Assembly (NCBI RefSeq): GCF_022129445.1 | Contig: NZ_JADQAQ010000005.1 | Coordinates: 11,322-75,321 of the forward strand | DNA: 64,000 nucleotides | Direction: 5' to 3' | Source: Photobacterium sp. Ph5 | GTDB lineage: Bacteria > Pseudomonadota > Gammaproteobacteria > Enterobacterales > Vibrionaceae | Shown: in pieces, positions 1 through 48,914 of the stretch | Layout of the letters: every line of letters starts with the position of its first letter | Position numbering within the stretch: the first letter of the stretch is position 1 | The notes under the pieces: generated by a model | Told to the model about the DNA's origin: nothing | The model's input: the letters and a program-made list of their open reading frames with translations, nothing else | Database searches by the model: none | Translations under genes and position numbers: made by a program

Positions 1-470
1 TCGGATCAACGTTTTCAGCTTCAACTTCAGGTTTTGATTCAGCTTGTGCCTCTGCTTGTTGTGCGGCTTTTCTTGCTTTAGCACGAGCGACGGCAGCAGC
101 GACAGCGGCTTTTTTCGGATCAACGTTTTCAGCTTCAACTTCAGGTTTTGATTCAGCTTGTGCCTCTGCCTGTTGTGCGGCTTTTCTTGCTTTAGCACGG
201 GCAACGGCAGCAGCAACAGCAGCTTTTTTCGGATCAACGTTTTCAGCTATAGGTTCAGGTGCTGATTCAGCTTGTGCCTCTGATTGTTGTGCGGCTTTTC
301 TTGCTTTAGCGCGAGCCACGGCAGCAGCAACAGCGGCTTTCTTAGGATCAACGCTTTCAGTTTCAACTACAGGTTCAGTTGTTGATTCAGCTTGTGCCTC
401 TGATTGTTGTGCGGCTTGTCTTGCTTTAGCACGAGCGACGGCGGCTGCGACAGCATCTTTTTTACTGTCA
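1..470 (-). repeat. Four 114-bp in-frame tandem repeats in rsxC tail
   Basis: The block starting TCGGATCAACG recurs at 1, 115 and 229, and in changed form at 343; a degenerate fifth start is near 457. The period is exactly 114 bp, so the frame is kept. On the coding strand each unit encodes 38 residues, a helical Ala-rich stretch (such as AAVAAAVARAKARKAAQQ) followed by an acidic linker ending ENVDP. The first three units are nearly identical, which suggests recent duplication and probable copy-number variation between strains. The array may extend beyond position 1. Confidence 0.95.
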
Positions 471-2224
471 TTTTCAGCAGCGGGTTGGTTACTTGCTGTA
501 GCTTCTTTTTCAGCCTTACGTTCACGAGCTTGACGTTTACGCTCTTCACGTAATTTCGCCATTTCACTGTTATCTGGCAGGCTTTCTGAAGTTGCATCTT
601 GTGCTGAAGCTGCTTGTTTTGCTTTTGCTTTTGCAATCGCTGCTGCAACAGCAGGTTTCACTTCAGTTGTATCTGCTTTAGCGGCTGCTGCTTGTTTGGC
701 TTTTACGCGGGCAATAGCAGCAGCGACTGCATCATCACCCCCAGTTTTCGCCATTTCATCACGACGAGAATCAGCAGCTTTTTTAAAGCGGTTTTCACGC
801 TCTGCTTTATCGCGTTCCATACGAGCTTGTTTGGCTTCAAAGCGCTGGCGAGCACGTTCAGCATTTATTTCATCTTGACTACGAGCCCAGATCTCGGCTT
901 TGGCTTGGCGATAATATTGAACTAAAGGAATTTCACTTGGGCATACATACGCACAAGCACCGCATTCAATGCAGTCTTGTAAGTTGTATTCTTCGCATTT
1001 ATCGTAGTTTTGATCTTTGGCATACCATTGTAATTGCTGTGGAAGTAATGATGATGGGCAAACATCCGCACAAGCAGAACAACGAATACATGCCATTTCA
1101 TAGGTATGTAGTGGCAGCTCTTTACGTTTTGGAGCCAGAATACAGTTTGTTATTTTGGTAATTGGAACATTGGAGTGCGGGAGTGTAAATCCCATTAATG
1201 ATCCACCAATGATCACTCGTGGATGTTTCTTATCTGCTTTATAGCCAAACTTGTCTAATAAATAGGCAATCGGCGTGCCTAGCATGGCAAAAACATTACC
1301 ACGTTGTTTAAAGGCTTCACCCGTTAACGTTACAACACGCTCAATCAGTGGTTCACCGTCGATAATGGCGCGCTTAATCGCAAAAGCAGTACCTATGTTT
1401 TGCATGATAACGCCAACAGAAGTTGAACGTGACTGACTTGGTACTTCTCTGCCAGTTAGGATTTTCACTAACTGCTTTGAGCTACCTGATGGATATTTTG
1501 TTGGCACAACACGGATCAGAATGTTGTCTGCTTCGGTGACATGCTGTTCAAGGGCTTTAATTGCTTCAGGTTTGTTATCTTCAATACCGATGATTGTGAG
1601 CTTTGGGCTAATAATATGGCGAAGAATACGCACACCTTCGATCACTTCTTCAGCATAATCGCGCATCAGTCGATCATCGGCAGTAATGTATGGCTCACAC
1701 TCGGCCGCGTTGATAATTAAAATATCGACATTACCTAAACCGCCTTGGAGTTTTCTTGCGGTAGGGAAACCTGCGCCACCTAATCCTGCAATACCACTTA
1801 AACGGATTGTTTCGATCAGTTCAGCTGGATCACGATCTTCATAATCTGTATAGGTTGTTTTCTCTCCCCAAGTATCAGTGTGATCGGGGTGAAGCACGAT
1901 ACATAAATCGCTTAAACCTGATGGATGAGCAGTGGTACGTTGCTCAATGGCTATTACTGTACCAGATGTGGGCGCATGAACAGGGACACACATTGCAATG
2001 TCGCCTTGTGTCAGAGCTTGACCTTTTTGTACTTTGTCACCAACGGCAACGATAATGTCGCCTTTAGAACCGATATGTTGTTTAAGCGGTAAAACGAGCT
2101 CTTGTGGAATGCCAGCACTCACGATAGGTGCTTGATTTGAGATTTTTTTATTTTCAGCGGGATGAATACCGCCATGGAAATCCCACAACTTACCTTGTTT
2201 AATTTGTTCAATGATAGATAGCAT
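1..2224 (-). CDS. rsxC: Electron transport complex subunit RsxC/RnfC (3' part beyond window)
   Basis: RsxC (RnfC) is the peripheral NADH/flavin and Fe-S subunit of the membrane Rsx/Rnf complex, which in gamma-proteobacteria helps keep SoxR reduced or couples ferredoxin/NADH oxidation to ion movement. The ATG at 2224 lies 2 nt after the rsxB stop and the product begins MLSIIEQIKQGKLWDFHGGI, typical of the family. 741 codons are visible without a stop. Two ferredoxin-type motifs are seen: CIRCSACADVCP near residue 379 and CIECGACAYVCP near 418. From about residue 435 the chain becomes a charged Ala/Lys/Arg/Glu-rich tail. From about residue 585 to the window edge it consists of tandem 38-residue repeats (114 bp). 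Long repetitive tails are known in Vibrionaceae RnfC, but length and copy number vary. The C-terminus and rsxD are outside the window. Confidence 0.95.
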   Translation of the reverse strand, partial: MLSIIEQIKQGKLWDFHGGIHPAENKKISNQAPIVSAGIPQELVLPLKQHIGSKGDIIVAVGDKVQKGQALTQGDIAMCVPVHAPTSGTVIAIEQRTTAHPSGLSDLCIVLHPDHTDTWGEKTTYTDYEDRDPAELIETIRLSGIAGLGGAGFPTARKLQGGLGNVDILIINAAECEPYITADDRLMRDYAEEVIEGVRILRHIISPKLTIIGIEDNKPEAIKALEQHVTEADNILIRVVPTKYPSGSSKQLVKILTGREVPSQSRSTSVGVIMQNIGTAFAIKRAIIDGEPLIERVVTLTGEAFKQRGNVFAMLGTPIAYLLDKFGYKADKKHPRVIIGGSLMGFTLPHSNVPITKITNCILAPKRKELPLHTYEMACIRCSACADVCPSSLLPQQLQWYAKDQNYDKCEEYNLQDCIECGACAYVCPSEIPLVQYYRQAKAEIWARSQDEINAERARQRFEAKQARMERDKAERENRFKKAADSRRDEMAKTGGDDAVAAAIARVKAKQAAAAKADTTEVKPAVAAAIAKAKAKQAASAQDATSESLPDNSEMAKLREERKRQARERKAEKEATASNQPAAENDSKKDAVAAAVARAKARQAAQQSEAQAESTTEPVVETESVDPKKAAVAAAVARAKARKAAQQSEAQAESAPEPIAENVDPKKAAVAAAVARAKARKAAQQAEAQAESKPEVEAENVDPKKAAVAAAVARAKARKAAQQAEAQAESKPEVEAENVDP

Positions 2225-29785: not shown

Positions 29786-29786
29786 A

Positions 29787-32514: not shown

Positions 32515-32947
32515 ATTTATTCGCCATTGATTTGATGTAATATTATATAAGCTAAATTACTTATATTCTAGATGTGTGTATATAAAATTATAAAAAATAT
32601 TGTATATATTATCCTTTGTAATTACATGTTTTTTAGTTGTTGTAAATGACTTTTTAACCAGATTTTTTTTGGTATTAACACTTATTAAATTTGATTTTTT
32701 GCTTTGTTAGTTTCTTTAATTTAGCTTTTTTTATTTTAATTTAAGTTAGCATTTGTTTGTAAAGTCTTGTTTTTGTTGGTTAATATTTTTTGTTTGATGG
32801 TTGTGTTCCCAGTTTAAAAGTGCTTTTAAAAAATGACGGCTTGTTCTGATTTTTCAATTCATTATTATTCATAACATATGAGTTAACCCTGTATCTTTCT
32901 CTTGTTAATGTTTATTCATAGGGGCACCTAGTCAGCATTAATAAGGT
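32515..32947. promoter_or_regulatory. Divergent region between ToxR-like gene and giant exoprotein
   Basis: About 430 very AT-rich bases with T-rich tracts, compatible with H-NS binding. It must hold the promoters of both flanking genes. At 32878-32890 is ATGAGTTAACCCT, repeated exactly upstream of the barrel gene. No terminator or small gene is seen. Confidence 0.55.
32878..32890 (+). promoter_or_regulatory. Shared 13-bp motif, copy 1
   Basis: ATGAGTTAACCCT, 57 bp before the GTG of the giant gene. Identical to 44635-44647 upstream of the barrel gene. Contains the palindrome GTTAAC. Role as a regulator site is inferred. Confidence 0.5.
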
Positions 32948-35900
32948 GTGAAAATAATTAATAAGAAGATATACGGAAAGCTTATGCCTTTGTTATCAAC
33001 ATTAGTAAGATTCATATTATCTTTATTGATATGTATAACTGGTTTATCTGTGCTTCCTGCACAAGCTAATATTACCGATGATTTGGTGGTAACAATAAGT
33101 GCACCAAAGAATTATGATGCAGGTTCATCAGTTAAATATACATTAACCATTAAAAATAATTCTGAAGTTACTACTTATAAAAATATAAAGTTAAATGCAT
33201 CAATTGCAGATATCACTACGATGCTTGATTCCGGAGAAGAAGGTAATGCCTTTTCTTCTGTTTCTAATAAAGTCGATACTATTGGTGATAATAGTGATGC
33301 TGGTGTATTTAATACTTCTGGAAATCTAGCGTCGACAAATATTATTGTTGCTCCTTCTGAGTCAATTACTTATATCATTACAGCTAAGACTGTTGAAAAT
33401 GCTATCGGCGATATTAATACCAGTGATCATGTTTCATTTAAAAAGGGTTTCTGGTTTAAAAAGGAATTAGATGCGGTTGTCACTCAATATCTACAGCCAG
33501 ATCTTTCTATTACTAAAACCGTTGCTAATACGGCATATCAAACAGGGAAGAAAATTACCTATACTGTTGTGGTTGAAAATGCTGCTCATGCAGGTACTGC
33601 ACGTCATTATCATGTGATTGATACGCTTTCATCTATCCAGTCACAAGCGGCAAATAATAATATCGACGACAATAATAACTGGTCACATACCGATGAAGAT
33701 AAGTCTAACCCATTTACAACGTGGGATATTGCTGTTGCTGTTGAAAACGGTGCTGACTCTTCATTATCTTCTCCTCTTAAAGATACTGATCTTGATGACA
33801 CAGTGACATTACCTGCAAAGGGTAAAATTACCTATACAGTGACAGCGACAACAACAACTGTTGCTATTGCAGAGATCAGTAATAAAGCGCTGTTGCTTGA
33901 TGCAAAAAAACAACAAATTGCTGAAACGGCATTAGTGAATACAAATACCCAGCTTGTAAATACGACACAGAATACGAAAAGAGTGATTGAAAGTGAGTAT
34001 TCACCGGGTAACGAAATCACTTATAAATTAAGAGTTAAAAATACAGATAAGCATAAGTTTGCTAATAACATCAGTTTATTAGATAAGCTGATGACATGTC
34101 CTACCACTACGCAATCGACAGGTGCAGATGAGGCGCCATTTGAGTATTGGTATATCGACAGTATTGATGCAGAAAATACTGCTAAAGGTACTGATGCAGG
34201 TGTTGCTGCGAATAACCCGTCGGCACATCGAACGGATAACATTAACTTTGTGGTCGATTTAGCGCCAAATTCTTATATCGAATATACGATCAAAGCAAAA
34301 GTGAAAGACACCACGATTGGACATATTCAAGATTCTAATGCTTGTGGTGATGACTTTGATGAATCTGGCTCTGGTATTGATATGCCAAAGGGTAAGATCC
34401 AAATTAAGAAATCGGTAGATCAAGACAAGTTCACTCCGGGTGAAGATATTACTTATACCATTGAAGTAAAAAACCCATCGAATGGTTTGTTACTTGATAT
34501 TCCTGTGGTTGATAAATTAAATGAAATCACGGCAGAGAATGCTGACGGTAAGATGGTATATCCATTTGTTGAAGGGAGTATTCGTGTAACTACAGATCAA
34601 GGTAAACATTCAAACCCTGATGTTAATGGTGATTTAAATAAAAATCCTATTGATGTAAAAGCAACTATTTTTCCGAATGAGTCGGTGAAATACATTGTTA
34701 CCGCTAAAACCAAGCAAGACATTGTCGGTGTTATCTCTAATACGGCTTATGCAGGTGAAGGAACACAACAAGGTAAATCGACTGTTATTACTACGCCTCG
34801 TTTAGAAAATTTAAACATAGAGAAGCATGTTAAAGGTGCAAATAGTGATGGATGGCGTGCGTACGGTTATAAGGATGATGAGTTTACTTACACCATTAAA
34901 GTCACGAACCCAGCACCTGCGGGCTTTGCTCAAAATGTCACAGTGACGGATGCTATATCTCAAATAAAAGCAGAGTTACTTGAAAAAGCGGGTGAAGAAG
35001 TACCTGTATTCACGTCATGGACAGTATCTACAGCTACTGACGGTGGGGCGGAAGTTGTTACAGCGCCTGAAAATAATAAAGATTTAGAGAGTGTTATTAA
35101 TGTTCCAGCTGATAGTTCGGTAACATTTACTGTAACTGCCAATATTGACCCACGTCGTAAAGATCACGTGATTTGGGGCAAGTTTACTAACCAAGCACAA
35201 GCTAAATTGGCACGTACAGGCGAAGTTATCAAAACAGCTAACGTTGATGTTGTTCCTGCTGAACCTCGTTTACGTTTGCGTAAGTTAGTGTCGAACAGTG
35301 TTTATACGGTTGGACAACCACTTGAGTACACCATTGATATTCAAAATTATGATCGTGATGGTTATGTGAATGATGGTCGTGTATCTGATTCAATTTCATC
35401 ATTGAGTATTTTTGATCAATGGAAAGTTTGGTGGGAAGTCATTGATGATGAAAAGAACCCTGCAACCACTGATCGTGGACAAGGAACAGAACTATTTGGT
35501 TACCCAACCACAGAAGCAAGTGCGAGTGAAAGTACCAAAGATATTAATAATGCTCGCTTTGATTTAGCACCGCATCAAACATTACGTATTCATGTAAAAG
35601 GCTTAGTGTCTGAAAAGGCAGTTGGTAAAGGTAAGATCACTAACGTTGTAACTGCAACGGATAATGCAGGTGATCATTTTGATGCCTCTGTTGATGTCAA
35701 TGAAGATAATACATCGGTCAATAGCATTAGTATCTACAAATACGGTGATCCTGACTTTAAACGTTATCACCCAGGTGACAAGTACACTTGGACGGTACGT
35801 GTTGTAAATAACAGTGCGAATGCTGTCGACAATGTTGTAGTGAACGACAAGATCATCGGTATAGATGTTTTGCTAGCTAATAACGGCGACAACAAGTATG

Positions 35901-38900
35901 CCGATATTACTGGTACACCTTACCGTTCATGGACGATTACCAAGCAAGTTGGTGAGGGAAGTGAAGAACATTTTTCTGATGATGTTGATTTACATAATGA
36001 ATTGAAATTGGCGAAAAAAGGTGAGGCTGGCGACAATGCAACTTACCGAATTACGGCCATTATTAAAGATAATGTCGTTGATGAGTGGTTAAACAACGTC
36101 GCAGATGTGACTTACCTTACCCTGAGAAATGGCAAGATGGAGCCAATCACGGCATACGCTAAAGCTTCTGTACAGCGTGCGTCTACAGGTGGTGATGTCA
36201 CTCGTCATTTGAATGAAACACAGTATATTCCTGGTAAAACAAAAATCGTTTATACCATCACGGCATCTTCAAACTTAGGCTATATGAACAATAAAGCTAT
36301 TTTGGAGAACCTTGAAGGTCTAACGGTTAAAACCATTAATAAAGATGGTACAACTTCAGAAGGTAACCCGTTTGATCATGGCTCTGGCCCTGAATTCACC
36401 GTATCAGTAGAGAAGTCAGAAGTAACAGGACACGACGTACCATCGACTTCTACTGATGGCACGTTAGACGGCACTGTTGCTGATAATAAAAATATTGATA
36501 CGACTATTGATGTCGCGCCAAAAGATAAAGTGATTTATACCGTTACAGGTACGGTACGTGACGATGCTGTTGGTGATATTACTTTTAATAACGATCCTGA
36601 CTTAGTGGTTGAACCTTATGAGTCGAAATTAGAAATTGAAAAGAAGGTTGATCAGAAAAGCTATGAACCAGGTAAACCATTACATTACACCTTAACCGTT
36701 AAAAACACGGGTAAAGCCCATGCCTTTGATGTACATGTTAAGGATCTACTTGCTGACGTGAAAGTGCTAGATGTTAATGGTAATCAAGCGCCTGCGTTCT
36801 CGTCTGTGACAACAACTGATAAATACAGCGGTGAATATAAAACATGGTATTTCGCAGGTCACTATGACAAAACTGGCAGCATTAATACAACGGATACCAT
36901 TATTCCTTTAGGTGGTACTGCTGTTTATAGCGTTAATGCTGTTGTTAACAAAGATGCGGTTGGCCCAATTACCAATGCCTTAGATGTAAATGGTAATACC
37001 ACCGAAGTGGTTACTAACCCTGTTACTGCAAAATACATTGCTAACAAGACGATTGTTGCTTACTACGATGACGAGAAAAATAAACTGCCGGATCTTAAAG
37101 GTTATATGCCGGGTGGTTACATTGAGTATCAGGTGACGGTTACTAACCAAAGCACTGCGAATATTGATGATTTATCGATAAAAGACGATCTATCTACTAT
37201 CACAGCAAAAACCGTAGATGGTGGAGAAGAGCCTGTTTTTGATGATGTATTGATTGACTATGCTTTTGTTCGTCAAGATGCATTTAGTAAAGTGGCAGGC
37301 TTTGCATCTTCAACTCAAGTACTTGATACAAAAGTTGATATTGGCCCTGAAAATGCGGTGACGTTTAATATTAAAGCGCATATTAAGCCTACCATTGTTG
37401 GTACTTTCCAAAATGAGGCAAATATTGGAGACAGGCTACACCCTAAATCTCCTATCTCTAAGATGCTACCAGCTAATGTTGAGCTAACGAAAATTGTTAT
37501 GGATAGTGCAGGTAAGGAAATAAAGACTTACCAACCAGGCCAAAAAATCCAATACAAAATTGAGTTATCAAATAAAGGCTACGGTACGAGTTACACTGTG
37601 GCATTGAAAGATGAGCTAAGTAAATTACTTACCAACGTAGCTGAATTATCAGGTGACGGTAAGCAAGATCCAACAGCTACTCCTTTCAGTCATTGGATTG
37701 TTCATGAGCCTGTATTTGATGGTGGTATTACAACAATCCCACTGACAACTGGGCAGAATGATATTAAAGCTAAGGCTGTGCTTGCACCTAAAGTTGGCAA
37801 AATAACGATTTTAGTGGATGCAACCATTAGCGATGATGCATTGGGGGATATTACCAATACCGCAGTGTTTGGTAAGAAGAGTGATGATGCTGTATTAACA
37901 CCTGAGCCTAAAGATATTAGAGCGTCAAAAAATGTGATTGAACTTGATGGTAAGCCGTTTACATCGAATAGCTATTATCTTCCAGGACAAAAAGCGACAT
38001 ATGAAATTAAAGTTAAAAATAGTTCAAATAACTGGGCAAATGACATCACAGTTAAAGACGTTGTATCACATGTAAACGTTGATGTAGCGGGCGATAAGAA
38101 TGAGCCAGCTTATAGCAACTATCGCATTACTTATCGTGTTGAAGGTGGTGTATCTTGTTTGCCTGATACCTTTGTACCTGTAAATACGCCTTTAGATAAT
38201 AAGCAGCTTGATACTGAACTGGATATTGCACCACAACAAACCGTGTACTTTACCGTTGAAGCAATGATTAAAGATACTGCGGTTGGTGTGATTGAACCTA
38301 ACCATGCATTTGTTAATGATTTAGACAACACATCGCAGGAGATCCCACCGCAAAACAGTGACTTTGTTATTCATAAAAAGGTGGCAGATGAAGATAAAAC
38401 CTTCACGCCAGGGCAAGAGATCAACTACACCATCACAGTAGAAAATACAGGTGACGCGTGGCTGAATGATTTACCGATCAAAGATGAATTGACAGCGATT
38501 ACAGCTGATATTGCTCATGATGCGACATCATCTACGACAGGCTCGGCTTTTAGCTCAGTATCAGTTGAAGCGAAAGCTACTGATGGTTCATTTGTTACAA
38601 GCAATGCTTCAGACAACATTGACGCTGTGGCTGATATTAAACCGAAAGGCTCTGTGACATTCACAGTGACTGCTGTCGTTGCAGATAACGTTATTGGTGA
38701 AATTGATAATACCGCTTATGCAGGAAGTGATAATACGCCTTCTGAAAAGGTCACTATCACGCCTAAGCAAGGTGATTTTGAGTTAACTAAAACAGCAGAT
38801 ACTGAGACATATGTAACCGGTCAAGAAGTAACGTACAGTGTGACGTTAAGCAATAGTAGTGATGCTTGGATTTCTGATATTTCTCTTCAAGATCAAGTAT

Positions 38901-41900
38901 CAAAGATTGTTGCTGACTCTCATGCTGGGGTAAAAGCACCTGCATTTGACGCATCTAGTATTAACTTTACTTGGGCATCAGAAGGTGCAATTAAGAGCTT
39001 TGTCGATGTTAACTCTGTGAATGAATCAGCGACGGTATCTTTAGCGCCAAAAGGCAAAGTGATCTTTACCATTAAGGCGAAAGTAGCTGACAACATTGTC
39101 GGTGACATTACCAATGAAGCGATAGCCAATGATAAAACTGCAGATGTAACAATTACACCAAAAGTAAGTGAATTCGATATTCATAAAGCAGCGGATATTG
39201 AAACATTTGTACCGGGACAAGTTGTTACCTACACCGTTACCGTAAATAACACAGGCGGCACTTGGTTAGATGATCTTCCAATTAAGGATGATCTAAAAGC
39301 AATCCAAACGGATGTAATTGGAACTTCAGGCAGTAAAGAGAAAGGCAATGCCTTTAGTGCAATTGAAGTAACAGCATCTGCAACGCCAGATTCAACAGTT
39401 ACTAACACAGCAGCCGATACTATTGATGCAACGGCTGACATTAAGCCGCAAGGCAGTGTGACATTTACGGTTAAAGCAACGGTTGCCGCGAATGTTATTG
39501 GCAATATCGATAACACAGCCTATGCAGGTAATGACAACACACCATCAGAGACGGTGACAATTACACCAGAATCAGGTGATTTTACGTTAACGAAAACGGC
39601 CGATATTGCTGAGTTCGTGACAGGTCAGGAAGTGACTTATGTGGTGACACTTGAAAATAGCAGTGATAGCTGGATCACTGATATTCAGTTGTCAGATAAA
39701 GTCTCTAAGATCATGGCTCTATCTCACGATGGTAATGATGAAAATGCATTTGAATCGTCAAGTATTAGCTATGAGTGGCATGTAAAAGGCACAGATAAAA
39801 GCTATATCGAATCTGATCTTGCTAATGAATCAGCGGTAGTGAATCTTGCGCCAAAAGGTATTGTTGATCTAACAATCAAAGCGAAAGTCGCTGAAAACGT
39901 GGTTGGCGATATTACCAATGTCGCAACGGCAAATGATAAAACGGCAGAGGTAACGATTGATCCTAAGCGTGGTGACTTTACTATTACTAAATCGGTTAAT
40001 AAGGCAACCTTTGTGCCGGGTAAACCAGTCACTTATACAGTAACAGTAAAAAATACTGGTGGTACATGGTTAGATAACTTCCCGATTAAAGATGATCTAA
40101 AAGCGATTGAAGCTGATATCGCACATAGCGCGAGTTCACCCGTTAAAGGTGTGGCATTTAACACTGTATCAGTAGTAGCTAAAGCATCTGATGGCTCATC
40201 TGTAACCAATAGCGTTACTGACAATATTGATGCTATTGCAGATATTAAACCTGACGGTGACGTTACTTTTACGGTTGAGGCTACTGTTGCTGATAACGTG
40301 ATTGGCGCAATTGATAACACCGCTTATGCAGGTGAAGAAAATACGCCATCTGAAACGGTAACTATCACGCCAGAGCAAGGGGACTTTGCGTTAACTAAGA
40401 GCGCTGATACTGATACCTTTATTCAAGGTCAGAAGATCACTTACACAGTGACATTGTCAAATGATTCTGATAGTTGGGTAACGGATGTACTGCTAAAAGA
40501 TGAAGTATCGAAAATCGAAGCACTTGATCCAACAGGCACAAAAGTAGCTGCGTTTGATCCTGCCACGATTAAGGTTTCAGCAACATCTGAAGGTAGCCTT
40601 GATAGCTTTGTTGATATCAATACAGCTAGTGAATCGGCAACGGTAAGTCTTGCGCCACATGGCAAAGTGCACTTTGACATTGAGGCGAATGTTGCCAGCA
40701 ATATTGTTGGGGATATTACTAACGTGGCAATGGCGGGAAATAAATCTGCTGAAGCGACAATTACCCCAACGCAAGGTGAATTTACGCTAGAGAAAGCCGT
40801 AAACAAACCAACGTTTGTACCTAATGACACCATGACGTACAGCCTAACTCTGAAGAATAATTCAGAAGCATGGGTAACAAATGTAAAAGTGACTGATGCA
40901 TTTAATACCATTACAACTGAACTTGCAGGTCATCGAACAGGATTAGCTTTTGATAAATCATCAATCAAAGTGACATCTGGCAAGATCACTGCTGGTGAAG
41001 GTTATGTGAAACCTAATCCTGATGGTAGTGCATCTGCATTAGTGGATTTAGCACCAAACAGTGAAGCGGTGATAACAGTGGATGCCCAGGTTGCAAGCGA
41101 TGTTGTCGGTAATATTGCCAATACTGCCTATGCGAATGATCAAGCATCGAATGAAGTGGTGATCACGCCTGAAGCATCTGAAATCACGATAGAGAAAACA
41201 GCTGATATTAGCGAGTTTGTTCCGGGTCAAACCGTGAATTACACAGTGACAGTGAATAACACCAAAGCGAGTTGGGCAACAGGCGTTAATATCAAAGATG
41301 AAGTGTCTAAAATTGAAGCTGAAATTGCTGGTGGTACGCCAACGTCACCATTAACAGGCAGTGCTTTTGATGCTAATTCGATTGTGACGAAAATTGTTGA
41401 CTTAGGTGATAGCAAAGTTGTTAAGCAAGAAAGCAATGAAAGTATCATTTTAGATATCGCGCCTAACGCTTCAGTGGTGGTAAATATTGCTGCGAATGTG
41501 AATAAGAACGTGATTGGTTCTATTACCAATATCGCTCATGCGATTGATAATAATGGTGACGACCATAATGCTGAAGTGACAATCGAACCTATTGAAGGTG
41601 CAGTAATTTTAACTAAAGAAGCTATCTACGCGACTTATAAGAACGGTGGTGAAGTAGGTTTTGATATTAAAGTTGAAAATACAGGTGCAGGTTTTGCCGC
41701 TAATGTGACGCTTGAAGATTTAATCAGCAAGATAGAAGCAACAACAAACTTAGGTCAGCCAACCCCCGCATTAACACATTGGAAAGTGAGTTATGTCGCT
41801 GGTGATGAAAACACCAAAGTGATGGATGTTGCTTTAAACAAGCTAAAACAAAACTTACCTGAAGATAAAGACGTGAATGTGGTGATGGATATTGCACCGC

Positions 41901-44056
41901 AAGATACAGTGACATTCACCGTAATGGGTACTGCTGCTGATGACATTGTTGATGATATTACTAATACCGCGAGCATGACATTTGGTGAGAACAAACAGGA
42001 TGCAACGGCAACTGTTAAGCCTGAGCAAACCAATTTTGAAGCAACCAAAGCGAGCGTTGAATCGTATTACACCATCAATAAGGATGTGAGCTTTGAGCTA
42101 AGTATCACCAACACATCGAACAATATTATCAATGACATGGTGGTTAATGATGATATGAGTGGAATAAAGGTGAAATATCGCGATGGTTCAATAGGTCCCG
42201 CTTTTGTAAAAGATAGCACTAAGTTTGTTGTAGAAACCGTTCCACAAGGCGCACAGGTTCAAGCGCAAACAGAGAGTCAGTTCTTGGTTGATCTACTACC
42301 TAAGCAAACTATTACTTTTAAAGTAACAGGTAAGGTTGTAGATAGTGCTAATGGCATGATTCAAAATGTCGCGCAGGTAAATGATCAAGATGTACCAAGT
42401 AATTTTGTCCCACCATTGGAGCCTGAAATTACAGGTACGATTGTTACGACAACGGATTACGATGATGACAATGTAGGTGAAGACGAAAATATCTATGTAC
42501 CGGGTGGAACCGTGGTTTACACCATCACGCTAGAAAACAACACTGATGCGTTTGCTAACAATGTTGGCTTTATGAGTGAGTTCTCAAAGGTTAGTTCAGA
42601 AGATTATAACGGTCGTCAAATTCATGCTTATACCGATTGGAAGATCGCAACCAAAGCAACAGGTACGGAGCGTGGTACTACAGTAGGTAGTTACACTGAT
42701 GGTAAAGATGTACAAACGGGATTACACATCGCACCACACAGTAAAGTGGTTTATACCTTTACCACTCAAGTTGATAAGAACCTTGTTAATGTTATCGACT
42801 ATGCTGCGTTTTACATTGATAGAAAAGTGATAGGGCATATTGATGTACATAACTTGTCGGTTACTAAGCTTGAGTCTGAAGTGAAACCTATGCTGCCAGA
42901 GTACGATTTGAAGCTGACAAAAACAGCATCAAAAGCAACGGCACAAGTCGGTGATGTCGTTGAATACGAAGTGATGGTAGAAAACGACAACAAAGCGAAT
43001 TTCTACGATGTATCAGTTGTTGACCATTACCCAGCAGGTTTCCAATATGTGACGGGTTCAACCCAAATCGTGCATAGTGGTCCTGATGGTGAGTTTGATA
43101 CCAAAGATGATCAATCACTAAGCCAAGAGCCTGTGATGTCAGGACAATTAACCTTTAGAAAGGTTAACCTGAAATCAAACGAGAAAGTGCGTGTCCGTTA
43201 CCTTATGCGTGTTAGTACCGGGGTGACATTTGGTAAATATGTGAATACCGCCGTTGCGCAGATCCGTGGTGAAGATAAATCGAATGTCGATAAAGCCGTG
43301 GTGGAAATTGAAGCGGATAAGTTATTTGATACCGCATCTATCATAGGTAAAGTATTTGAAGACTTAAATGGCGATGGTTTCCAAGCCGATGCAACTGCCA
43401 AAGGCATTACTGTAAAAATAGACTTACCGAAAGGGGATTATGTTGCCAATTCAACAACCTTAATGCGTGACGGTAAAACGACAGTAGTGAGTGATGCAAA
43501 ACAAGCAGCGCCTATTAACCGTGGTATTACAGTTAAAACGTTGATGGGCCAATCGCAAAACCGAACCTTGAAGCAAAGTAATAAAGCTGTGATCCGTTTT
43601 AAAACGACAACAGCTACACCGTTTGCCTTTAGCGTAACAACAAGCAATGGTACTCATGTTCATTTTGGAACTGATAGTAAGATCACGCGCACATTAACGG
43701 GTGATACCAAACAAGGACTTTCAGCAGAGAACCTCAATGTGACACGTAATCTATACCAAGCGAAAACAGGTTATGTTTGGGAGATCGTAATTGAAAACTT
43801 GGGTATCTATGAAGATGGTATTCCTGGGGTTCGCTTAATTACCACTGAAGGGATTAAGATCGAAACCGATCAATTTGGTCGTTACCATATTCCAGATCAG
43901 TGGGTGAAAGATAAGAAAGGTAAGAACTTCCTTGTGAAAGTTGATACTGATTCTTTACCAACAGGAATGAAAGTGATCAGTGAAAACCCGAAAGTACAGC
44001 GTATAACACCGAATGCACTGGCTAAGTTTAACTTTAGTGTTCAAACCAAACATTAA
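32948..44056 (+). CDS. Giant DUF11-repeat exoprotein (3702 aa)
   Basis: One uninterrupted frame of 3702 codons. It has an N-terminal signal peptide (hydrophobic LSLLICITGLSV, ending PAQA near residue 39). About 24 tandem Ig-like repeats of the DUF11 / conserved-repeat type follow, each about 130-150 residues. Their typical phrases are ITKTV..., GQEVTYTVTVENT, APKGSVTFTV and ...GDITNTA. Near residues 3470-3700 is an SdrD/carboxypeptidase-regulatory-like module (FEDLNGDGF; ETDQFGRYHIPD). The protein is acidic and almost cysteine-free. There is no LPXTG, autotransporter barrel or obvious type I secretion tail. GTG at 32948 has AAGG immediately before it; ATG 32984 (GGAAAG upstream) is an alternative that leaves a shorter signal. 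Likely a long surface filament or adhesin; the export route is unknown. Confidence 0.85.
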   Translation: MKIINKKIYGKLMPLLSTLVRFILSLLICITGLSVLPAQANITDDLVVTISAPKNYDAGSSVKYTLTIKNNSEVTTYKNIKLNASIADITTMLDSGEEGNAFSSVSNKVDTIGDNSDAGVFNTSGNLASTNIIVAPSESITYIITAKTVENAIGDINTSDHVSFKKGFWFKKELDAVVTQYLQPDLSITKTVANTAYQTGKKITYTVVVENAAHAGTARHYHVIDTLSSIQSQAANNNIDDNNNWSHTDEDKSNPFTTWDIAVAVENGADSSLSSPLKDTDLDDTVTLPAKGKITYTVTATTTTVAIAEISNKALLLDAKKQQIAETALVNTNTQLVNTTQNTKRVIESEYSPGNEITYKLRVKNTDKHKFANNISLLDKLMTCPTTTQSTGADEAPFEYWYIDSIDAENTAKGTDAGVAANNPSAHRTDNINFVVDLAPNSYIEYTIKAKVKDTTIGHIQDSNACGDDFDESGSGIDMPKGKIQIKKSVDQDKFTPGEDITYTIEVKNPSNGLLLDIPVVDKLNEITAENADGKMVYPFVEGSIRVTTDQGKHSNPDVNGDLNKNPIDVKATIFPNESVKYIVTAKTKQDIVGVISNTAYAGEGTQQGKSTVITTPRLENLNIEKHVKGANSDGWRAYGYKDDEFTYTIKVTNPAPAGFAQNVTVTDAISQIKAELLEKAGEEVPVFTSWTVSTATDGGAEVVTAPENNKDLESVINVPADSSVTFTVTANIDPRRKDHVIWGKFTNQAQAKLARTGEVIKTANVDVVPAEPRLRLRKLVSNSVYTVGQPLEYTIDIQNYDRDGYVNDGRVSDSISSLSIFDQWKVWWEVIDDEKNPATTDRGQGTELFGYPTTEASASESTKDINNARFDLAPHQTLRIHVKGLVSEKAVGKGKITNVVTATDNAGDHFDASVDVNEDNTSVNSISIYKYGDPDFKRYHPGDKYTWTVRVVNNSANAVDNVVVNDKIIGIDVLLANNGDNKYADITGTPYRSWTITKQVGEGSEEHFSDDVDLHNELKLAKKGEAGDNATYRITAIIKDNVVDEWLNNVADVTYLTLRNGKMEPITAYAKASVQRASTGGDVTRHLNETQYIPGKTKIVYTITASSNLGYMNNKAILENLEGLTVKTINKDGTTSEGNPFDHGSGPEFTVSVEKSEVTGHDVPSTSTDGTLDGTVADNKNIDTTIDVAPKDKVIYTVTGTVRDDAVGDITFNNDPDLVVEPYESKLEIEKKVDQKSYEPGKPLHYTLTVKNTGKAHAFDVHVKDLLADVKVLDVNGNQAPAFSSVTTTDKYSGEYKTWYFAGHYDKTGSINTTDTIIPLGGTAVYSVNAVVNKDAVGPITNALDVNGNTTEVVTNPVTAKYIANKTIVAYYDDEKNKLPDLKGYMPGGYIEYQVTVTNQSTANIDDLSIKDDLSTITAKTVDGGEEPVFDDVLIDYAFVRQDAFSKVAGFASSTQVLDTKVDIGPENAVTFNIKAHIKPTIVGTFQNEANIGDRLHPKSPISKMLPANVELTKIVMDSAGKEIKTYQPGQKIQYKIELSNKGYGTSYTVALKDELSKLLTNVAELSGDGKQDPTATPFSHWIVHEPVFDGGITTIPLTTGQNDIKAKAVLAPKVGKITILVDATISDDALGDITNTAVFGKKSDDAVLTPEPKDIRASKNVIELDGKPFTSNSYYLPGQKATYEIKVKNSSNNWANDITVKDVVSHVNVDVAGDKNEPAYSNYRITYRVEGGVSCLPDTFVPVNTPLDNKQLDTELDIAPQQTVYFTVEAMIKDTAVGVIEPNHAFVNDLDNTSQEIPPQNSDFVIHKKVADEDKTFTPGQEINYTITVENTGDAWLNDLPIKDELTAITADIAHDATSSTTGSAFSSVSVEAKATDGSFVTSNASDNIDAVADIKPKGSVTFTVTAVVADNVIGEIDNTAYAGSDNTPSEKVTITPKQGDFELTKTADTETYVTGQEVTYSVTLSNSSDAWISDISLQDQVSKIVADSHAGVKAPAFDASSINFTWASEGAIKSFVDVNSVNESATVSLAPKGKVIFTIKAKVADNIVGDITNEAIANDKTADVTITPKVSEFDIHKAADIETFVPGQVVTYTVTVNNTGGTWLDDLPIKDDLKAIQTDVIGTSGSKEKGNAFSAIEVTASATPDSTVTNTAADTIDATADIKPQGSVTFTVKATVAANVIGNIDNTAYAGNDNTPSETVTITPESGDFTLTKTADIAEFVTGQEVTYVVTLENSSDSWITDIQLSDKVSKIMALSHDGNDENAFESSSISYEWHVKGTDKSYIESDLANESAVVNLAPKGIVDLTIKAKVAENVVGDITNVATANDKTAEVTIDPKRGDFTITKSVNKATFVPGKPVTYTVTVKNTGGTWLDNFPIKDDLKAIEADIAHSASSPVKGVAFNTVSVVAKASDGSSVTNSVTDNIDAIADIKPDGDVTFTVEATVADNVIGAIDNTAYAGEENTPSETVTITPEQGDFALTKSADTDTFIQGQKITYTVTLSNDSDSWVTDVLLKDEVSKIEALDPTGTKVAAFDPATIKVSATSEGSLDSFVDINTASESATVSLAPHGKVHFDIEANVASNIVGDITNVAMAGNKSAEATITPTQGEFTLEKAVNKPTFVPNDTMTYSLTLKNNSEAWVTNVKVTDAFNTITTELAGHRTGLAFDKSSIKVTSGKITAGEGYVKPNPDGSASALVDLAPNSEAVITVDAQVASDVVGNIANTAYANDQASNEVVITPEASEITIEKTADISEFVPGQTVNYTVTVNNTKASWATGVNIKDEVSKIEAEIAGGTPTSPLTGSAFDANSIVTKIVDLGDSKVVKQESNESIILDIAPNASVVVNIAANVNKNVIGSITNIAHAIDNNGDDHNAEVTIEPIEGAVILTKEAIYATYKNGGEVGFDIKVENTGAGFAANVTLEDLISKIEATTNLGQPTPALTHWKVSYVAGDENTKVMDVALNKLKQNLPEDKDVNVVMDIAPQDTVTFTVMGTAADDIVDDITNTASMTFGENKQDATATVKPEQTNFEATKASVESYYTINKDVSFELSITNTSNNIINDMVVNDDMSGIKVKYRDGSIGPAFVKDSTKFVVETVPQGAQVQAQTESQFLVDLLPKQTITFKVTGKVVDSANGMIQNVAQVNDQDVPSNFVPPLEPEITGTIVTTTDYDDDNVGEDENIYVPGGTVVYTITLENNTDAFANNVGFMSEFSKVSSEDYNGRQIHAYTDWKIATKATGTERGTTVGSYTDGKDVQTGLHIAPHSKVVYTFTTQVDKNLVNVIDYAAFYIDRKVIGHIDVHNLSVTKLESEVKPMLPEYDLKLTKTASKATAQVGDVVEYEVMVENDNKANFYDVSVVDHYPAGFQYVTGSTQIVHSGPDGEFDTKDDQSLSQEPVMSGQLTFRKVNLKSNEKVRVRYLMRVSTGVTFGKYVNTAVAQIRGEDKSNVDKAVVEIEADKLFDTASIIGKVFEDLNGDGFQADATAKGITVKIDLPKGDYVANSTTLMRDGKTTVVSDAKQAAPINRGITVKTLMGQSQNRTLKQSNKAVIRFKTTTATPFAFSVTTSNGTHVHFGTDSKITRTLTGDTKQGLSAENLNVTRNLYQAKTGYVWEIVIENLGIYEDGIPGVRLITTEGIKIETDQFGRYHIPDQWVKDKKGKNFLVKVDTDSLPTGMKVISENPKVQRITPNALAKFNFSVQTKH
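38353..40775 (+). repeat. Three 804-bp higher-order repeats in the giant gene
   Basis: Within the giant gene two kinds of DUF11 domain alternate. Type A (IHKKVADE..., VENTG...WL.DLPIKD) starts near 38353, 39163 and 39967. Type B (LTKTAD..., SNSSD.WI.DI) starts near 38768, 39572 and 40376. The type B starts are exactly 804 bp apart, so an A+B pair of 268 residues has been copied, and DNA similarity between copies is high. Such units can expand or contract by recombination. Confidence 0.85.
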
Positions 44057-44074
44057 TTAGTTAGACGATGAATC

Positions 44075-44108
44075 AAAGGCTGATGAATTCTCATCAGCCT
44101 TTTTTTAT
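44075..44108 (+). terminator. Terminator of the giant exoprotein gene
   Basis: AAAGGCTGATGA-ATTC-TCATCAGCCTTT, a 12-bp perfect stem followed by a T run. Confidence 0.95.
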
Positions 44109-44634
44109 ATCAAAGAGTCGCTTCCATATCTATTAATATAACGAACACTGGTTCATCATTTATCTTGCCATGAATAACAGTGCGCGTATTAATCAATCTA
44201 TTGCTGTTGTTCTATATCCCTAGATGTATTTCACTATGTGCTTTAATGAGTATAAAGACCTATCTATGAGAGGTTAAATATTTGATAGGTTAATTGATAC
44301 AGCGAAGTCATTTTCATTTTTTGAAATTACAGTAAGAGATAATAATAACCATGATTTTTAGATGGAAATAACAAGGAGAAGTGAAAATATTACAGTTATT
44401 GGAGTTTTAATATTGTTCTGAAAGTTGGGTTCAAAACGCTTTGTTATTATAAAAATATACGATATCTGGCTTTAATTGTATGATTTTAAACGTTTATGTT
44501 TTTTTATATTAAGGTGATTAAATTCTGCTTCTCTTCATTTTTCATGATGATTTTATCTTTTCCTGTCTTTTATATTAATTGACGTAAACAGTGTTTTTTT
44601 CTCTGAAATTCAAAATCAAAATATTTCAATGTTT

Positions 44635-44647
44635 ATGAGTTAACCCT
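44635..44647 (+). promoter_or_regulatory. Shared 13-bp motif, copy 2
   Basis: ATGAGTTAACCCT, identical to 32878-32890, 170 bp before the barrel gene start. Suggests a common regulator for the giant and barrel genes. Confidence 0.5.
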
Positions 44648-44817
44648 TTTAAGAGCAATTGTTAGCCTGTCTACATATTAATTATGTATCCATTTTGTTC
44701 ACAGATAACACCTATATGTCGTGTTCAAAATTAAGGAAGTAAAGACAGAAGAATTGCTATTCACCCGACTGAATATTGATTCTTTTATATCAGGCGTGGT
44801 TGCCAAAAGAGGTTAAA

Positions 44818-47800
44818 GTGAAACAGTTTAAACTAAGTAAAATAACACTATTAATCATTACGGCGTTGCCTTTAATTGCTCAAGCTCAATCTGTAAATAC
44901 GTCAGAAAACTCATCAACAATCGATTCTGAGCTGATATTAATTAGCTCAGAATCTACCGATGTTAAAACCGATATTCACACACAGAAAGATAACTCCCGC
45001 ATATATTTAGATGAAGGTGCGATCTGGGCTACCCGGGACATTACCAAATTTTCACCTGTGCTTAATATTGATCTCAGTGATGAGGTTGAAGTTGAACACA
45101 ATAAAGTGACAGATAGCCTTCGATTTAATATCCAAACTAATTACTCTCATTACATTAAGCGTTGGCAGCTTGCGGTATACCGTGGCAAAGATCGCCATTT
45201 ATCTCAGCCATTAAAAGTGCTGACTGGTGATGAACTGAGTAATGATTTTGATATTGAATGGGACGGAAAAACTGAAACGAACTATCAGTTTAAAGCTGGG
45301 GAGCAACTGATCTTTAGGCTCAAGGTTTGGGATAAAGATAATAATATGGATGTATCGACACTCGGTGTTACCGATTTGGTTCATGCTGATAAACAAGTGG
45401 AAATCGATAAACTTGATAATGATGACAACAATGAAAAGCGCACTTATGGTCGTGCAACATTGATGCGTCATAACATTCCCACGTCTTCAGGCATGGCAAA
45501 AATGATGGGCACGGGGCTAAAGGGCGTTGATACTGTCACCATTGGTGAAGATGAATACACGGTGGAAGATGGCAAATTATATGTAGAAAAGTATTTGCCA
45601 ACAGATGCCTACATGTTCCCAGTGAAAGTGAAATATGACGATGGCAAAGAGCGTGACTACCAGCTATTTGTTCGTATTCCTGATACTTACTATGCTCAAG
45701 CTGGTTTAGTGGATCTGTATTTTGGTAAAAACCATGTTTCCGGTAATAAAGATGTGCTGGGCGTGGATGATCAATACCAAGGTGATATTTATAACCGAGG
45801 TCGCTTAGCCTATTTCGGTCAAGGTAAGTTTGGCGACAAGCTTCAGGTTGTTGCCCATGTTGATACCAAAGAATCAGCGTTAAAAGATATGTTCAAACAT
45901 CCGTTTGCCGCAGACGACACAACGGTATTTGATATCTTAGACGATGACGACGAAATGTATTACGGCAACTATGGTGATGAAGCCAATATTGAAAAAGTCG
46001 TTAATACAAAAGGTAAAGTCTATCTGGATGTGCAATATGACAAATCCAGTGCCATGTGGGGTAATTTCAATACTGGGTTAACTGGTACTGAAAATGCAGA
46101 CTACAGCCGTAGCTTATATGGTTTTAAAGGGGATTATCGTACGCGTCAAACCACGTCATTTGGTGATGATCGTCTTGCTGTCACCGCTTTTGCTTCACAG
46201 GCCGATACGCTTTCTTCACATGATGAATTCTTAGGTACTGGTGGTAGCTTATACAGCACTCGTCACGGTGAAATTGTACCTGGCAGCGACAAAGTCACTC
46301 TCGTTGTGCGTAACAGTAAAACAGGTGTTGTGGAAAGCCGTAAAACCTTGCAATCGGGTCGTGATTACACCATTAACCCGTTCCAAGGTCGTATTGTACT
46401 GAATAAACCATTAAGTCAGCAGTCACAATCTGGTGGTGATGGAGTATTAGATTCATCAACCAATAACGATCTCGAAAACTACTTATCGGTTGATTATGAA
46501 TATGTGCCAAACGGTAGCGAAGCACTAGAGCAAATGACTACGGGTGGACGTGTTAAAGGCTGGCTTACTGATAACATTGCCCTTGGTAGTACCTATGTTC
46601 AAGAGCAAAAAGATAATCAGAATTATCAATTATCAGGGGCTGACTTAACCTTAAAAGCCACTGAAGGGAGCTATTTAACGGCGGAATTTTCTCACTCTGA
46701 AGGGCAGCAAACTGACAGTAATTATTTGTCAAAAGATGGTGGTTTAAGCTTCGATAAAATTGAAAACACCGATCCAAGCGCAAAACGTCAAGGTGATATG
46801 ATCCAAGTACATGCAGTCGCGAGTTTGTACGATCTTATGCCTGATACCTTTGGTGCTGTCGGTAACGATATTGAAGCTTGGTATCGTGATAAAGATTTAG
46901 GTTATTCCTATGCCAGCCAAGACGATAACTTGGCACAGTTAGCTTATGGCTCGAAGCTACGTTTGCAGTTTGGCGATCGAACACAATTAACTACTCGATT
47001 TGATCATTTAGATGAGCAAGACAGCAGCGGTAAAACAGTTACTGATACCGAACGTGTTGAAGTTGAAGGTCAATACCGAATTACCGATCATTTAAAAATT
47101 GCCACAGCTGGTCGTCATGTCAATGAGCTTAATAATGACGATCAGCAAAGCTCTGGTGATTTGGTAGGCGTTCGTGCCGATTATGAATTTAACGATGACA
47201 ATAGTGTTTACGTTAAAGGGCAGAAAACCGTTAATGCTAGTCAGAGTTTTGATCAGGACGATAGCGTAGCTGTTGGGGCTGAGTTTGCACTGAATGATGA
47301 TTGGACGCTATCCGGTGAATATGCCACGGGTGATCGCGGCGATTCACTGCAAGCGAAAGTGGATTACCAAGTTAACGATTACTACTCTACTTACGCGAGT
47401 TATATCCAAGAAGATTACGATAACGAAAACAATATTGTCTTTGGTCAGAAAGCGGATCTCACCGATACCTTGTCGTTCTATCAAGAAAATCAGTTTGTGG
47501 ATGATAACAATGGCAAAGGTAAAGTGAACTCGTTTGGCTTTGATTATGATGTTAATGATGACGTTGACGCAGGTATTGCCTTTGAAAAGAGTAACTTAAA
47601 AAGCACAGATAATGGTGATATTGAGCGAAGTGGGATTAGTGTTTATACCTCGGTTGATAAAGACGATTACAGCTTAAAGAATAAAGTGGAATACCGTGTC
47701 GATAAAGGTGATAGCAAAGTCACTCAATTTGTTACCACTAACCGTTATGTTCATCACCTTAGCGATGAATACACCTTGTTTGGTAAGTTTAATTACTCGA

Positions 47801-48357
47801 AATCTAAAGATGAAACCAAAAACGAAGTCGTTGAACGCTACACAGAAAGTAGTGTGGGTTTAGCTTATCGTCCTATTTTTAATGATCGCTTGAACTTCTT
47901 AACTCGTTACACCTATTTAGAAGATTACGATCAAACTGACCGTTCCAAAGAGCAAGATACCAATAATGAGAAGAGCCATATTGTTGAAGGTGAAACGATT
48001 TATTCGGTTAATGCCCATGTTGATCTTGGTTTGAAAGGGGCTTACAAGAAAAAATCTGAGCTTTATAAACGTAAAGACACTAGTGATGTGCCCGTAAAGA
48101 ACGAGATCTTCCTAACTGGTGTCAGTGCCAGCTATAAAGTGATGAAAGACTGGGATGTATCTGGTGAGTATCACTGGAAAAAAGATCGTGTGACCGATGA
48201 TTTAGAGCAAGGTGCATTAGTGTCTGTGAATAAACATATTAATGATAATGTGAAAATTGGTGTGGGTTATAACTTTTCTAAATTTGATGATGATTTAGTA
48301 CATAACGATGATTACAACGCGAAAGGCGTCTTCATTAACTTAGTAGGTAAATTCTAA
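44818..48357 (+). CDS. Outer-membrane beta-barrel partner of the DUF11 exoprotein (1179 aa)
   Basis: The product has a signal peptide (MKQFKLSKITLLIITALPLIAQA). A periplasmic-type N-terminal region of about 250 residues follows, including a FlgD/Ig-like stretch (IEWDGKTETNYQFKAGEQLIFRLKVWD). About 850 residues of alternating beta strands rich in Tyr, Asp and Asn come next, and the C-terminus is FINLVGKF, ending in Phe as in BAM-assembled barrels. The phrase DEFLGTGGSLYSTRHGEIVPG, followed by a GRDYTINPFQGRI block, resembles the barrel part of single-chain DUF11/OmpA proteins as I recall them. GTG at 44818 is chosen for its AGAGG site; the frame is open slightly upstream. Its stop overlaps the lipoprotein gene (TAATG). 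It could be exporter, anchor or receptor of the giant protein. Confidence 0.8.
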   Translation: MKQFKLSKITLLIITALPLIAQAQSVNTSENSSTIDSELILISSESTDVKTDIHTQKDNSRIYLDEGAIWATRDITKFSPVLNIDLSDEVEVEHNKVTDSLRFNIQTNYSHYIKRWQLAVYRGKDRHLSQPLKVLTGDELSNDFDIEWDGKTETNYQFKAGEQLIFRLKVWDKDNNMDVSTLGVTDLVHADKQVEIDKLDNDDNNEKRTYGRATLMRHNIPTSSGMAKMMGTGLKGVDTVTIGEDEYTVEDGKLYVEKYLPTDAYMFPVKVKYDDGKERDYQLFVRIPDTYYAQAGLVDLYFGKNHVSGNKDVLGVDDQYQGDIYNRGRLAYFGQGKFGDKLQVVAHVDTKESALKDMFKHPFAADDTTVFDILDDDDEMYYGNYGDEANIEKVVNTKGKVYLDVQYDKSSAMWGNFNTGLTGTENADYSRSLYGFKGDYRTRQTTSFGDDRLAVTAFASQADTLSSHDEFLGTGGSLYSTRHGEIVPGSDKVTLVVRNSKTGVVESRKTLQSGRDYTINPFQGRIVLNKPLSQQSQSGGDGVLDSSTNNDLENYLSVDYEYVPNGSEALEQMTTGGRVKGWLTDNIALGSTYVQEQKDNQNYQLSGADLTLKATEGSYLTAEFSHSEGQQTDSNYLSKDGGLSFDKIENTDPSAKRQGDMIQVHAVASLYDLMPDTFGAVGNDIEAWYRDKDLGYSYASQDDNLAQLAYGSKLRLQFGDRTQLTTRFDHLDEQDSSGKTVTDTERVEVEGQYRITDHLKIATAGRHVNELNNDDQQSSGDLVGVRADYEFNDDNSVYVKGQKTVNASQSFDQDDSVAVGAEFALNDDWTLSGEYATGDRGDSLQAKVDYQVNDYYSTYASYIQEDYDNENNIVFGQKADLTDTLSFYQENQFVDDNNGKGKVNSFGFDYDVNDDVDAGIAFEKSNLKSTDNGDIERSGISVYTSVDKDDYSLKNKVEYRVDKGDSKVTQFVTTNRYVHHLSDEYTLFGKFNYSKSKDETKNEVVERYTESSVGLAYRPIFNDRLNFLTRYTYLEDYDQTDRSKEQDTNNEKSHIVEGETIYSVNAHVDLGLKGAYKKKSELYKRKDTSDVPVKNEIFLTGVSASYKVMKDWDVSGEYHWKKDRVTDDLEQGALVSVNKHINDNVKIGVGYNFSKFDDDLVHNDDYNAKGVFINLVGKF

Positions 48358-48857
48358 TGAAAAAATCACTCTTCGTATTATGTTTATTAGCGTTATTGAG
48401 TGGTTGCTCAACGGATACTTATGTTAGCCAAGAAAACATCAATAAGTTTGATGATCTCACTGTGAAGAAGTTTTTAATTGCAGAGCTTAAGCCGAAAACA
48501 ATAGCGGAAGATAAGAAGATATACTTGTCTTTGATCTCGCATTTTGACTTTGATAAAGCGGTTTTAAAACCACAAGACATTAAAGAGTTAGATGACTTTA
48601 TAGCTAAAATCCAGTCACTTTCAGGTGATATATTAATTGCAGGTCATACCGACTATCAAGGTAGTGATAGCTATAATGAAGCTTTATCGCTGCGTCGCTC
48701 ACATGCGATTGAAAGCTATTTAAAAGCGCGAATTGATGAAAGTCATTATCATTTTGAAGTGAAATATTTTGGCGAGAAGAATCCCATCGTGAAAGGGCAC
48801 AGCTTAAAAGCCAATGCATTGAACCGTCGTGGTTTGGTGATGTTCACGGAAGTCTAA
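48357..48857 (+). CDS. OmpA-like peptidoglycan-binding lipoprotein
   Basis: The 166-residue product has a lipoprotein signal (LLALLSGC, lipidated Cys17) and an OmpA C-terminal domain of about 110 residues. Its features are FDFDKAVLKPQDIKELDDF and the peptidoglycan-binding stretch GHTDYQGSDSYNEALSLRR with the conserved Asp and Arg. It resembles Pal but lies in the barrel operon (1-nt overlap), so it probably ties the barrel to the cell wall. A strong terminator follows. Confidence 0.9.
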   Translation: MKKSLFVLCLLALLSGCSTDTYVSQENINKFDDLTVKKFLIAELKPKTIAEDKKIYLSLISHFDFDKAVLKPQDIKELDDFIAKIQSLSGDILIAGHTDYQGSDSYNEALSLRRSHAIESYLKARIDESHYHFEVKYFGEKNPIVKGHSLKANALNRRGLVMFTEV

Positions 48858-48877
48858 TCGATAAATTCGAGATAAAG

Positions 48878-48914
48878 AAAAGGCGAGAAAGGTAACCCTT
48901 CTCGCCTTTTTAAT
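48878..48914. terminator. Bidirectional terminator of the OmpA-like and purB genes
   Basis: AAAAGGCGAGAA / TTCTCGCCTTTT stem with a 9-nt loop; T run on the plus side and complementary T run on the minus side. It separates the convergent lipoprotein gene and purB. Confidence 0.95.

Follow-up and report, generated by a model that had tools for sequence, protein, structure and literature searches.

Fibrillar adhesins are marked by great length and a stalk of repeated domains, and DUF11 is described as one such stalk domain in the available text of PMC9210967. A survey of these adhesins reports, in its available sections, nearly half of the candidates without a known anchor, all phyla taken together (PMC8286594), and the title of PDB entry 9ifr refers to a domain of a Gram-negative fibrillar adhesin, an 'OmpA-like domain-containing protein'. 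The window analysed here, a 64,000-nucleotide stretch of Photobacterium sp. Ph5, encodes a giant protein whose 3702 residues and 24 DUF11 repeats agree with this description. The shared length and DUF11 stalk are set against two differences: a dedicated barrel and a closing module go unmentioned in the available parts of both papers (PMC8286594, PMC9210967), and no adhesive domain was found among the giant's Pfam matches, although absence from Pfam alone cannot exclude one. The barrel, closing module and OmpA domain of this locus may together be a candidate anchor of the kind that the survey found missing.

Secretion types Va and Vb likewise combine a passenger bearing a signal peptide with a dedicated outer-membrane barrel, either fused (Va-like) or encoded by a neighbouring gene (Vb-like). 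Autotransporter and two-partner barrels have 12–16 strands, whereas the barrel predicted here would be several times larger, and an OmpA wall anchor belongs to the system. In contrast to type Va, passenger and barrel lie on separate genes in the window, with one chain in 23 of the 116 classifiable loci of the family. The Pfam autotransporter barrel domain had no match in the window barrel (E up to 0.1) or in seven relatives (0.01), and POTRA (type Vb) had no Pfam match in the same proteins. Type Ve, represented by intimin, also places an Ig-like stalk on a barrel with a wall-binding domain near it, but the order is reversed, the stalk here being N-terminal to the barrel (passenger then barrel in fused chains). 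Intimin-type inverse autotransporters use LysM as the wall-binding domain, whereas OmpA is found here, and the IAT_beta model (type Ve) has no Pfam match in the window barrel. AtaA of Acinetobacter, a trimeric autotransporter, forms a fibre on the cell surface and has its OmpA-domain partner, TpgA, as a separate protein, a pairing that resembles the one described here; the TpgA model scores 22.9 bits on the lipoprotein against a cut-off of 350. SlpA/OmpM proteins are likewise large barrels tied to peptidoglycan, but the tie here is an OmpA domain, a giant surface-type repeat chain is added, and no SLH domain matched in the three proteins (Pfam). SprA has no sequence match to the window barrel in the PDB, with porins scoring alike structurally, and the usher domain PF00577 is absent from the barrel protein (Pfam). 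The locus thus lacks the features examined for type Va, Vb and Ve secretion, ushers and TonB receptors, and fits fibrillar adhesins in stalk and length. By analogy, the system would work like an autotransporter with separable parts.

Three neighbouring proteins of the window

The locus comprises the following features:

32877..32907, + strand: bipartite box TATGAGTTAACCC-N12-TTGTTA ahead of the giant gene, shared with the barrel gene
32948..44056, + strand: giant protein of DUF11 repeats, 3702 aa (start codon GTG; signal peptide at the N-terminus, judged by eye)
33107..43204, + strand: 24 DUF11-type repeats, residues 54–3419 (self-built profile)
42914..44053, + strand: closing module, residues 3323–3702 (last DUF11 repeat and an SdrD_B/CnaB-like domain with an insert)
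44075..44102, + strand: intrinsic terminator between the giant and barrel genes (1 found against 0.1 expected from shuffles)
44634..44664, + strand: the same bipartite box again, identical (TATGAGTTAACCC-N12-TTGTTA), ahead of the barrel gene
44818..48357, + strand: outer-membrane barrel protein, 1179 aa (GTG start; ORF open from TTG 44776)
45685..48354, + strand: predicted barrel, residues 290–1179, about 40 strands (AlphaFold2 model and structure comparison)
48357..48857, + strand: OmpA-domain lipoprotein, 166 aa (Pfam OmpA domain; one-base overlap with the barrel stop)

The original prediction of about 24 DUF11-type repeats in a 3702-residue chain was borne out, with the open reading frame in place and a count of 24 from a profile made from the giant's own repeats; among curated models, Pfam DUF11 matched 16 stretches and TIGR01451 matched 17. 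The isopeptide-domain model TIGR04226 matched six stretches of the giant, where cross-links would be possible, and the mature protein contains three cysteines. Por_Secre_tail, the type 9 cargo domain, had no match on the giant (Pfam, E up to 0.1), and a phmmer search of the PDB with the whole giant as query returned nothing at 0.001. Repeat number varies from 24 in the window and P. angustum to 22 in two relatives and 19 in one genome (G016), yet the barrel of the latter is 98–100% identical over residues 61–1179. Against V. splendidus, identity was 32–42% in the repeat region, part of which low value may be due to out-of-register repeat alignment, compared with 60% over the last 252 residues and 54–70% over barrel residues 61–1179. 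The repeats diverge faster than the closing module and the barrel, and the barrel is kept while the repeat number shifts. We read the fast divergence, the varying repeat number and the few cysteines as signs that the giant is probably exposed at the surface, short of proving its export. An antisense ORF of 156 aa lies within the repeat region (40441–40911, − strand), with one of the same length in the P. angustum giant gene (L180, 3617–4087), and is probably a by-product of codon use.

The closing module is 380 residues long, and the GRYHIPD / SENPKVQRITP ending that had been noted for the giant is indeed present and strongly conserved. AlphaFold gave this module a mean pLDDT of 89.2, but a pTM of 0.57, and the matches listed for the predicted structure include a pilin, SdrD and other Ig-like structures, though a family's absence from the VIA list does not exclude it. 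Aureispira belongs to a different phylum. Its grappling hook protein GhpA, a 5898-aa chain (PDB 9flp), likewise has DUF11-like domains and scored best among PDB entries with the closing-module profile (whole-sequence E 7.5e-6, with no single stretch passing; best 0.24), but the DUF11 part of the closing module alone matches it.

The separate 1179-residue protein with a C-terminal Phe that had been proposed downstream was found, starting at GTG 44818, the start common to its relatives; the closest barrel among the named relatives is that of P. lucens (98% identity). Structure prediction of the barrel alone, as originally recommended, agreed with the barrel fold: an AlphaFold2 model from 68 sequences (mean pLDDT 76.6, pTM 0.71) predicts a large beta-barrel with fair confidence. 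From residue 290 onward, the model has 44 strands of at least seven residues, two of which (492–511) probably form an inserted small domain, so that about 40 would be membrane strands. A barrel of about 40 strands would fall in the size class of the 36-strand SprA. A 2020 review, in the part available, calls SprA the largest barrel identified, with an inner width of about 7 nm and room for folded cargo (PMC7463736), and the available text of another paper gives predicted 38-strand barrels in Deinococcus and describes SlpA as a 30-strand barrel linked to peptidoglycan (PMC9388160).

VIA-align matched the barrel model to SprA, porins, SlpA and ushers, in lists from which the absence of a family does not exclude it. 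The scores, among which gaps under 1 count as ties, were 16.7 for LamB (293 residues), 16.5 and 15.3 for SprA (528 and 594 residues; rmsd 12.8 and 13.8), 15.3 for Deinococcus SDBC, 14.4 for FimD and about 14 for porins. Foldseek ranked SprA first with TM-scores under 0.2, and SlpA/SDBC appeared among the structure matches of both programs. Because of these ties, with porins reaching the same Z as SprA, the model is best described as a large porin-like barrel; its likeness to SprA is unspecific, and we make no claim of kinship. Porin alignments reach both ends of the model (290..1179), an indication that the first and last strands are neighbours and that the predicted barrel is closed. At E up to 0.1 for the window barrel and up to 0.01 for seven relatives, Pfam showed no match to any secretion family. 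The FlgD label once given to the front of this protein was not confirmed: no FlgD-type Pfam model matched (E up to 0.1), although beta domains are predicted ahead of the barrel at about 61–189 and 215–287 (AlphaFold2).

The third protein is, as had been reported, a probable lipoprotein with an OmpA domain whose gene at 48357–48857 overlaps the barrel gene by one base. Its OmpA domain (PF00691, E 1.5e-13) contains TD...N..LS..R, which we take to be the peptidoglycan-binding motif of OmpA domains. The lipobox LSGC was recognised by eye, and Pfam LPAM_1 scored 19.6 bits, just below the cut-off of 20. Each of the three proteins in the window has its own signal sequence, as judged by eye.

Linkage, spread and gene boundaries

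Within the genus, the barrel was present in nine of 36 genomes, and the closing module and the OmpA gene lay alongside in all nine. A class sample of 369 genomes contained 50 with the barrel, 52 with the closing module and 44 with both (Fisher p 4e-42, the genomes not being independent). No partner match was found in eight of the 52 closing-module genomes and six of the 50 barrel genomes, and these 14 single-part genomes include some cut contigs or short DUF11-only matches. Among plasmid records, 20 had the closing module and 21 the barrel, with 20 common to both; in all 20, the barrel lay just downstream of the closing module on the same strand, with 198–1336 bp between listed match ends, and the match in the 21st barrel record spans only 40% of the query. 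Barrel matches, partial ones counted, also occurred in 58 of 398 genomes of a phylum sample. The giant, barrel and OmpA parts were adjacent wherever the stretch was long enough, except at one locus (L170) with an ORF between them, and at all classifiable loci the barrel was partnered by a giant chain of filament type. Because the gene set is conserved in other genera, classes and phyla, it is more than a chance arrangement. The original view of the three genes as components of a single system is thereby supported, and we hold it more firmly than the display mechanism proposed below.

Relatives of the system seem widespread and apparently undescribed, as no description of this gene set was recognised in the available portions of the open-licence PMC literature. 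Seven of the 21 plasmid barrel relatives are annotated 'TonB-dependent receptor' and others include 'hypothetical protein', names under which the family is partly hidden. Two system copies occur on one contig of Vibrio jasicida (L064 and L073), their barrels about 17 kb apart. On plasmid pSG53 of Sulfitobacter guttiformis (L184), an 18.6-kb DUF11 gene is followed 10 bp later by the barrel gene, here annotated as a TonB-dependent receptor, and the system takes up about 22 of the 53 kb.

We sorted 122 loci, with a gap limit of 900 bp between parts and an OmpA profile, into 93 split, 23 fused and 6 unclassified ones, the 116 classifiable loci being a biased sample. The bias in the split share arises because the 79 named loci, drawn from the best 80 of 239 relatives, were ranked by likeness to the split barrel of the window. 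A further 49 class genomes had a barrel match, and 40 of them contributed one place each, with nine genomes and all second places left out; these 40 loci of the class sample alone gave 18 fused, 17 split and 5 unclassified. Five of the six unclassified loci were cut by a contig end, and the sixth is L170 with its intervening ORF. Fused versions had been expected elsewhere and were found, one of them on contig 94 of the same genome. The suggestion that the split is something special was not upheld: division is common and one of several arrangements (93 of 116 loci in the biased collection, 17 of 35 in the class sample), and the idea that it is peculiar to this locus was dropped.

The OmpA domain of the 93 split loci was located on the giant in 37, on a downstream gene in 36 and on the barrel chain in 12, and was undetected in 8; for the 23 fused loci, it was inside the chain in 17, on a downstream gene in 2 and undetected in 4. 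Fused chains with OmpA run from repeats through closing module and OmpA to the barrel, one of them (L169) with an extra weak closing-module match past OmpA. As fused chains carry the same modules in one order, they appear to be the same machine with different gene boundaries. The longest fused frame, of 11777 aa (L140, genome G171), is a single chain with repeats, closing module, OmpA and barrel, of which only part was fetched. The fused chain on contig 94, 2221 aa long, is a distant relative: a one-to-one BLAST comparison with the window barrel gave 21% identity over 935 alignment columns (E 1e-16). A gene with an OmpA domain follows this chain after 13 bp, and four secreted proteins lie near it (L027, 194–14239, and L017), 923, 1122, 164 and 2439 aa long, of which the longest matches DUF11.

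A FastTree tree of 107 rows, from which the 6 unclassified loci and 9 near-copies were omitted, was midpoint-rooted and has long branches and a warning from the program itself. On this quick tree, at least four changes between split and fused forms are seen, without a direction of fission or fusion. The three-gene form (27 rows kept) makes up one side of a fully locally supported branch, whose members are Vibrionaceae, one Psychromonas and one MAG labelled Fusobacteriia; judged by this tree, it is one Vibrionaceae-centred group. Barrel relatives occur in three Fusobacteria-labelled records (L086, L093 and L100), with L086 within the Vibrionaceae group, and either gene transfer or mis-binned contigs would account for them.

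Proposed export and anchoring, and competing explanations

The modules, their order, their linkage and co-occurrence, and a common upstream box are observed features of this system. We consider it rather likely that they belong to an outer-membrane display machine of three parts, with the barrel bearing and probably exporting the DUF11 filament, the closing module anchoring it and the OmpA protein holding the wall. The Sec pathway would deliver all three proteins to the periplasm, and the barrel protein, whose fold and approximate size are predicted, would insert in the outer membrane as a single very large beta-barrel. The 24-repeat DUF11 chain would then move outward, most likely via that barrel, to form a thin surface filament, perhaps 100 nm long, with the N-terminus at its distal end; such a filament might serve attachment or biofilm formation. 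Its C-terminal closing module, held at the barrel, would be the anchor, and the OmpA lipoprotein would fix the base to peptidoglycan. The OmpA domain is fused to the C-terminus of the giant in 37 of the 93 split loci, which argues that this end is in the periplasm. The display machine thus provides the DUF11 giants of Gram-negative bacteria with a specific candidate for their anchor and perhaps their exporter.

More tentatively, the system could be its own class of secretion and display, with a dedicated barrel of about 40 strands, SprA-sized or larger, that would pass folded Ig-like repeats, a portable closing module acting as a stop-and-anchor signal, and OmpA as the wall tie; we incline to doubt this stronger reading. 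If true, it would account for the export and retention of many Gram-negative DUF11 giants. If the barrel truly has about 40 strands with one known partner, the crossing of the outer membrane by folded domains outside type 9 secretion becomes testable.

Co-occurrence of giant and barrel does not by itself make the barrel the pore. The barrel could be a membrane anchor only, with the giant exported otherwise (type II secretion, BAM/TAM help) and docking via its closing module while OmpA braces the base, an arrangement that linkage and fusion fit equally well and with which the separate signal sequences of the three proteins agree. However, fused chains carry the barrel on the C-terminal side of the passenger, an order shared with autotransporters, and the predicted barrel is far bigger than anchoring requires, so we think an anchor-only role unlikely. 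A periplasmic DUF11 chain that, with barrel and OmpA, ties the outer membrane to peptidoglycan, like SlpA in Deinococcus, seems distinctly improbable: it would explain the OmpA domain in or beside most loci and the SlpA/SDBC structure matches, SlpA being a peptidoglycan-tied 30-strand barrel in the available text of PMC9388160, but 24 stretched Ig-like domains by our estimate far exceed the width of the periplasm, repeat number and sequence change fast, and a barrel in just nine of 36 genus genomes is unlike a core envelope part.

The annotation of 7 of 21 plasmid barrels as TonB-dependent receptors raises the further idea that the barrel takes up nutrients, as a TonB-type receptor or a large porin, while the DUF11 protein catches them at the surface. 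In line with uptake, porins align well with parts of the barrel model, and an operon for oligopeptide ABC transport lies at 15635–21233, 12–17 kb upstream in the window, with apparent counterparts 2–10 kb upstream in relatives. We nevertheless regard this idea as highly improbable, as Pfam models of TonB-dependent receptors and plugs matched neither the window barrel, at E up to 0.1, nor seven relatives, at 0.01, and a giant filament-type partner is present at every classifiable locus.

Transcription signals and genomic surroundings

The stop of the giant gene and the start of the barrel gene are about 760 bp apart in the window, and only the terminator and the box stood out between them: sigma-70-like sites numbered 5 against 5.9 in shuffles, without excess, and no RNA families were found in 32000–49500. 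The stem region of the terminator is largely retained in three relatives, and the giant and barrel are apparently transcribed separately in the window. Across the 4.46-Mb genome, the 13-mer of the box occurs exactly at three places: in the two boxes and within a coding frame on contig 69. The composite box occurs in exactly two copies (giant and barrel) in five of nine genomes and in none of the other four, and its reversed control pattern was absent from all nine. This distribution suggests that the giant and barrel may be under dedicated joint expression where they are transcribed apart. In three named box-less genomes, only 98 bp separate the two genes, so one transcript is possible there.

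A chaperone-usher fimbrial operon, with a true usher at 26851–29292, an EAL gene and a wHTH gene occupy 25007–32514, between a GGDEF/EAL pair (21309–24429) and the giant. In five relatives, the usher, fimbrial subunit and wHTH protein had no match in the fetched sequence next to the giant, and the block therefore looks like an insertion here. The GGDEF/EAL pair encodes c-di-GMP enzymes near the giant. EAL-type proteins also lie close to the giant in four of the five relatives, a hint of c-di-GMP control.
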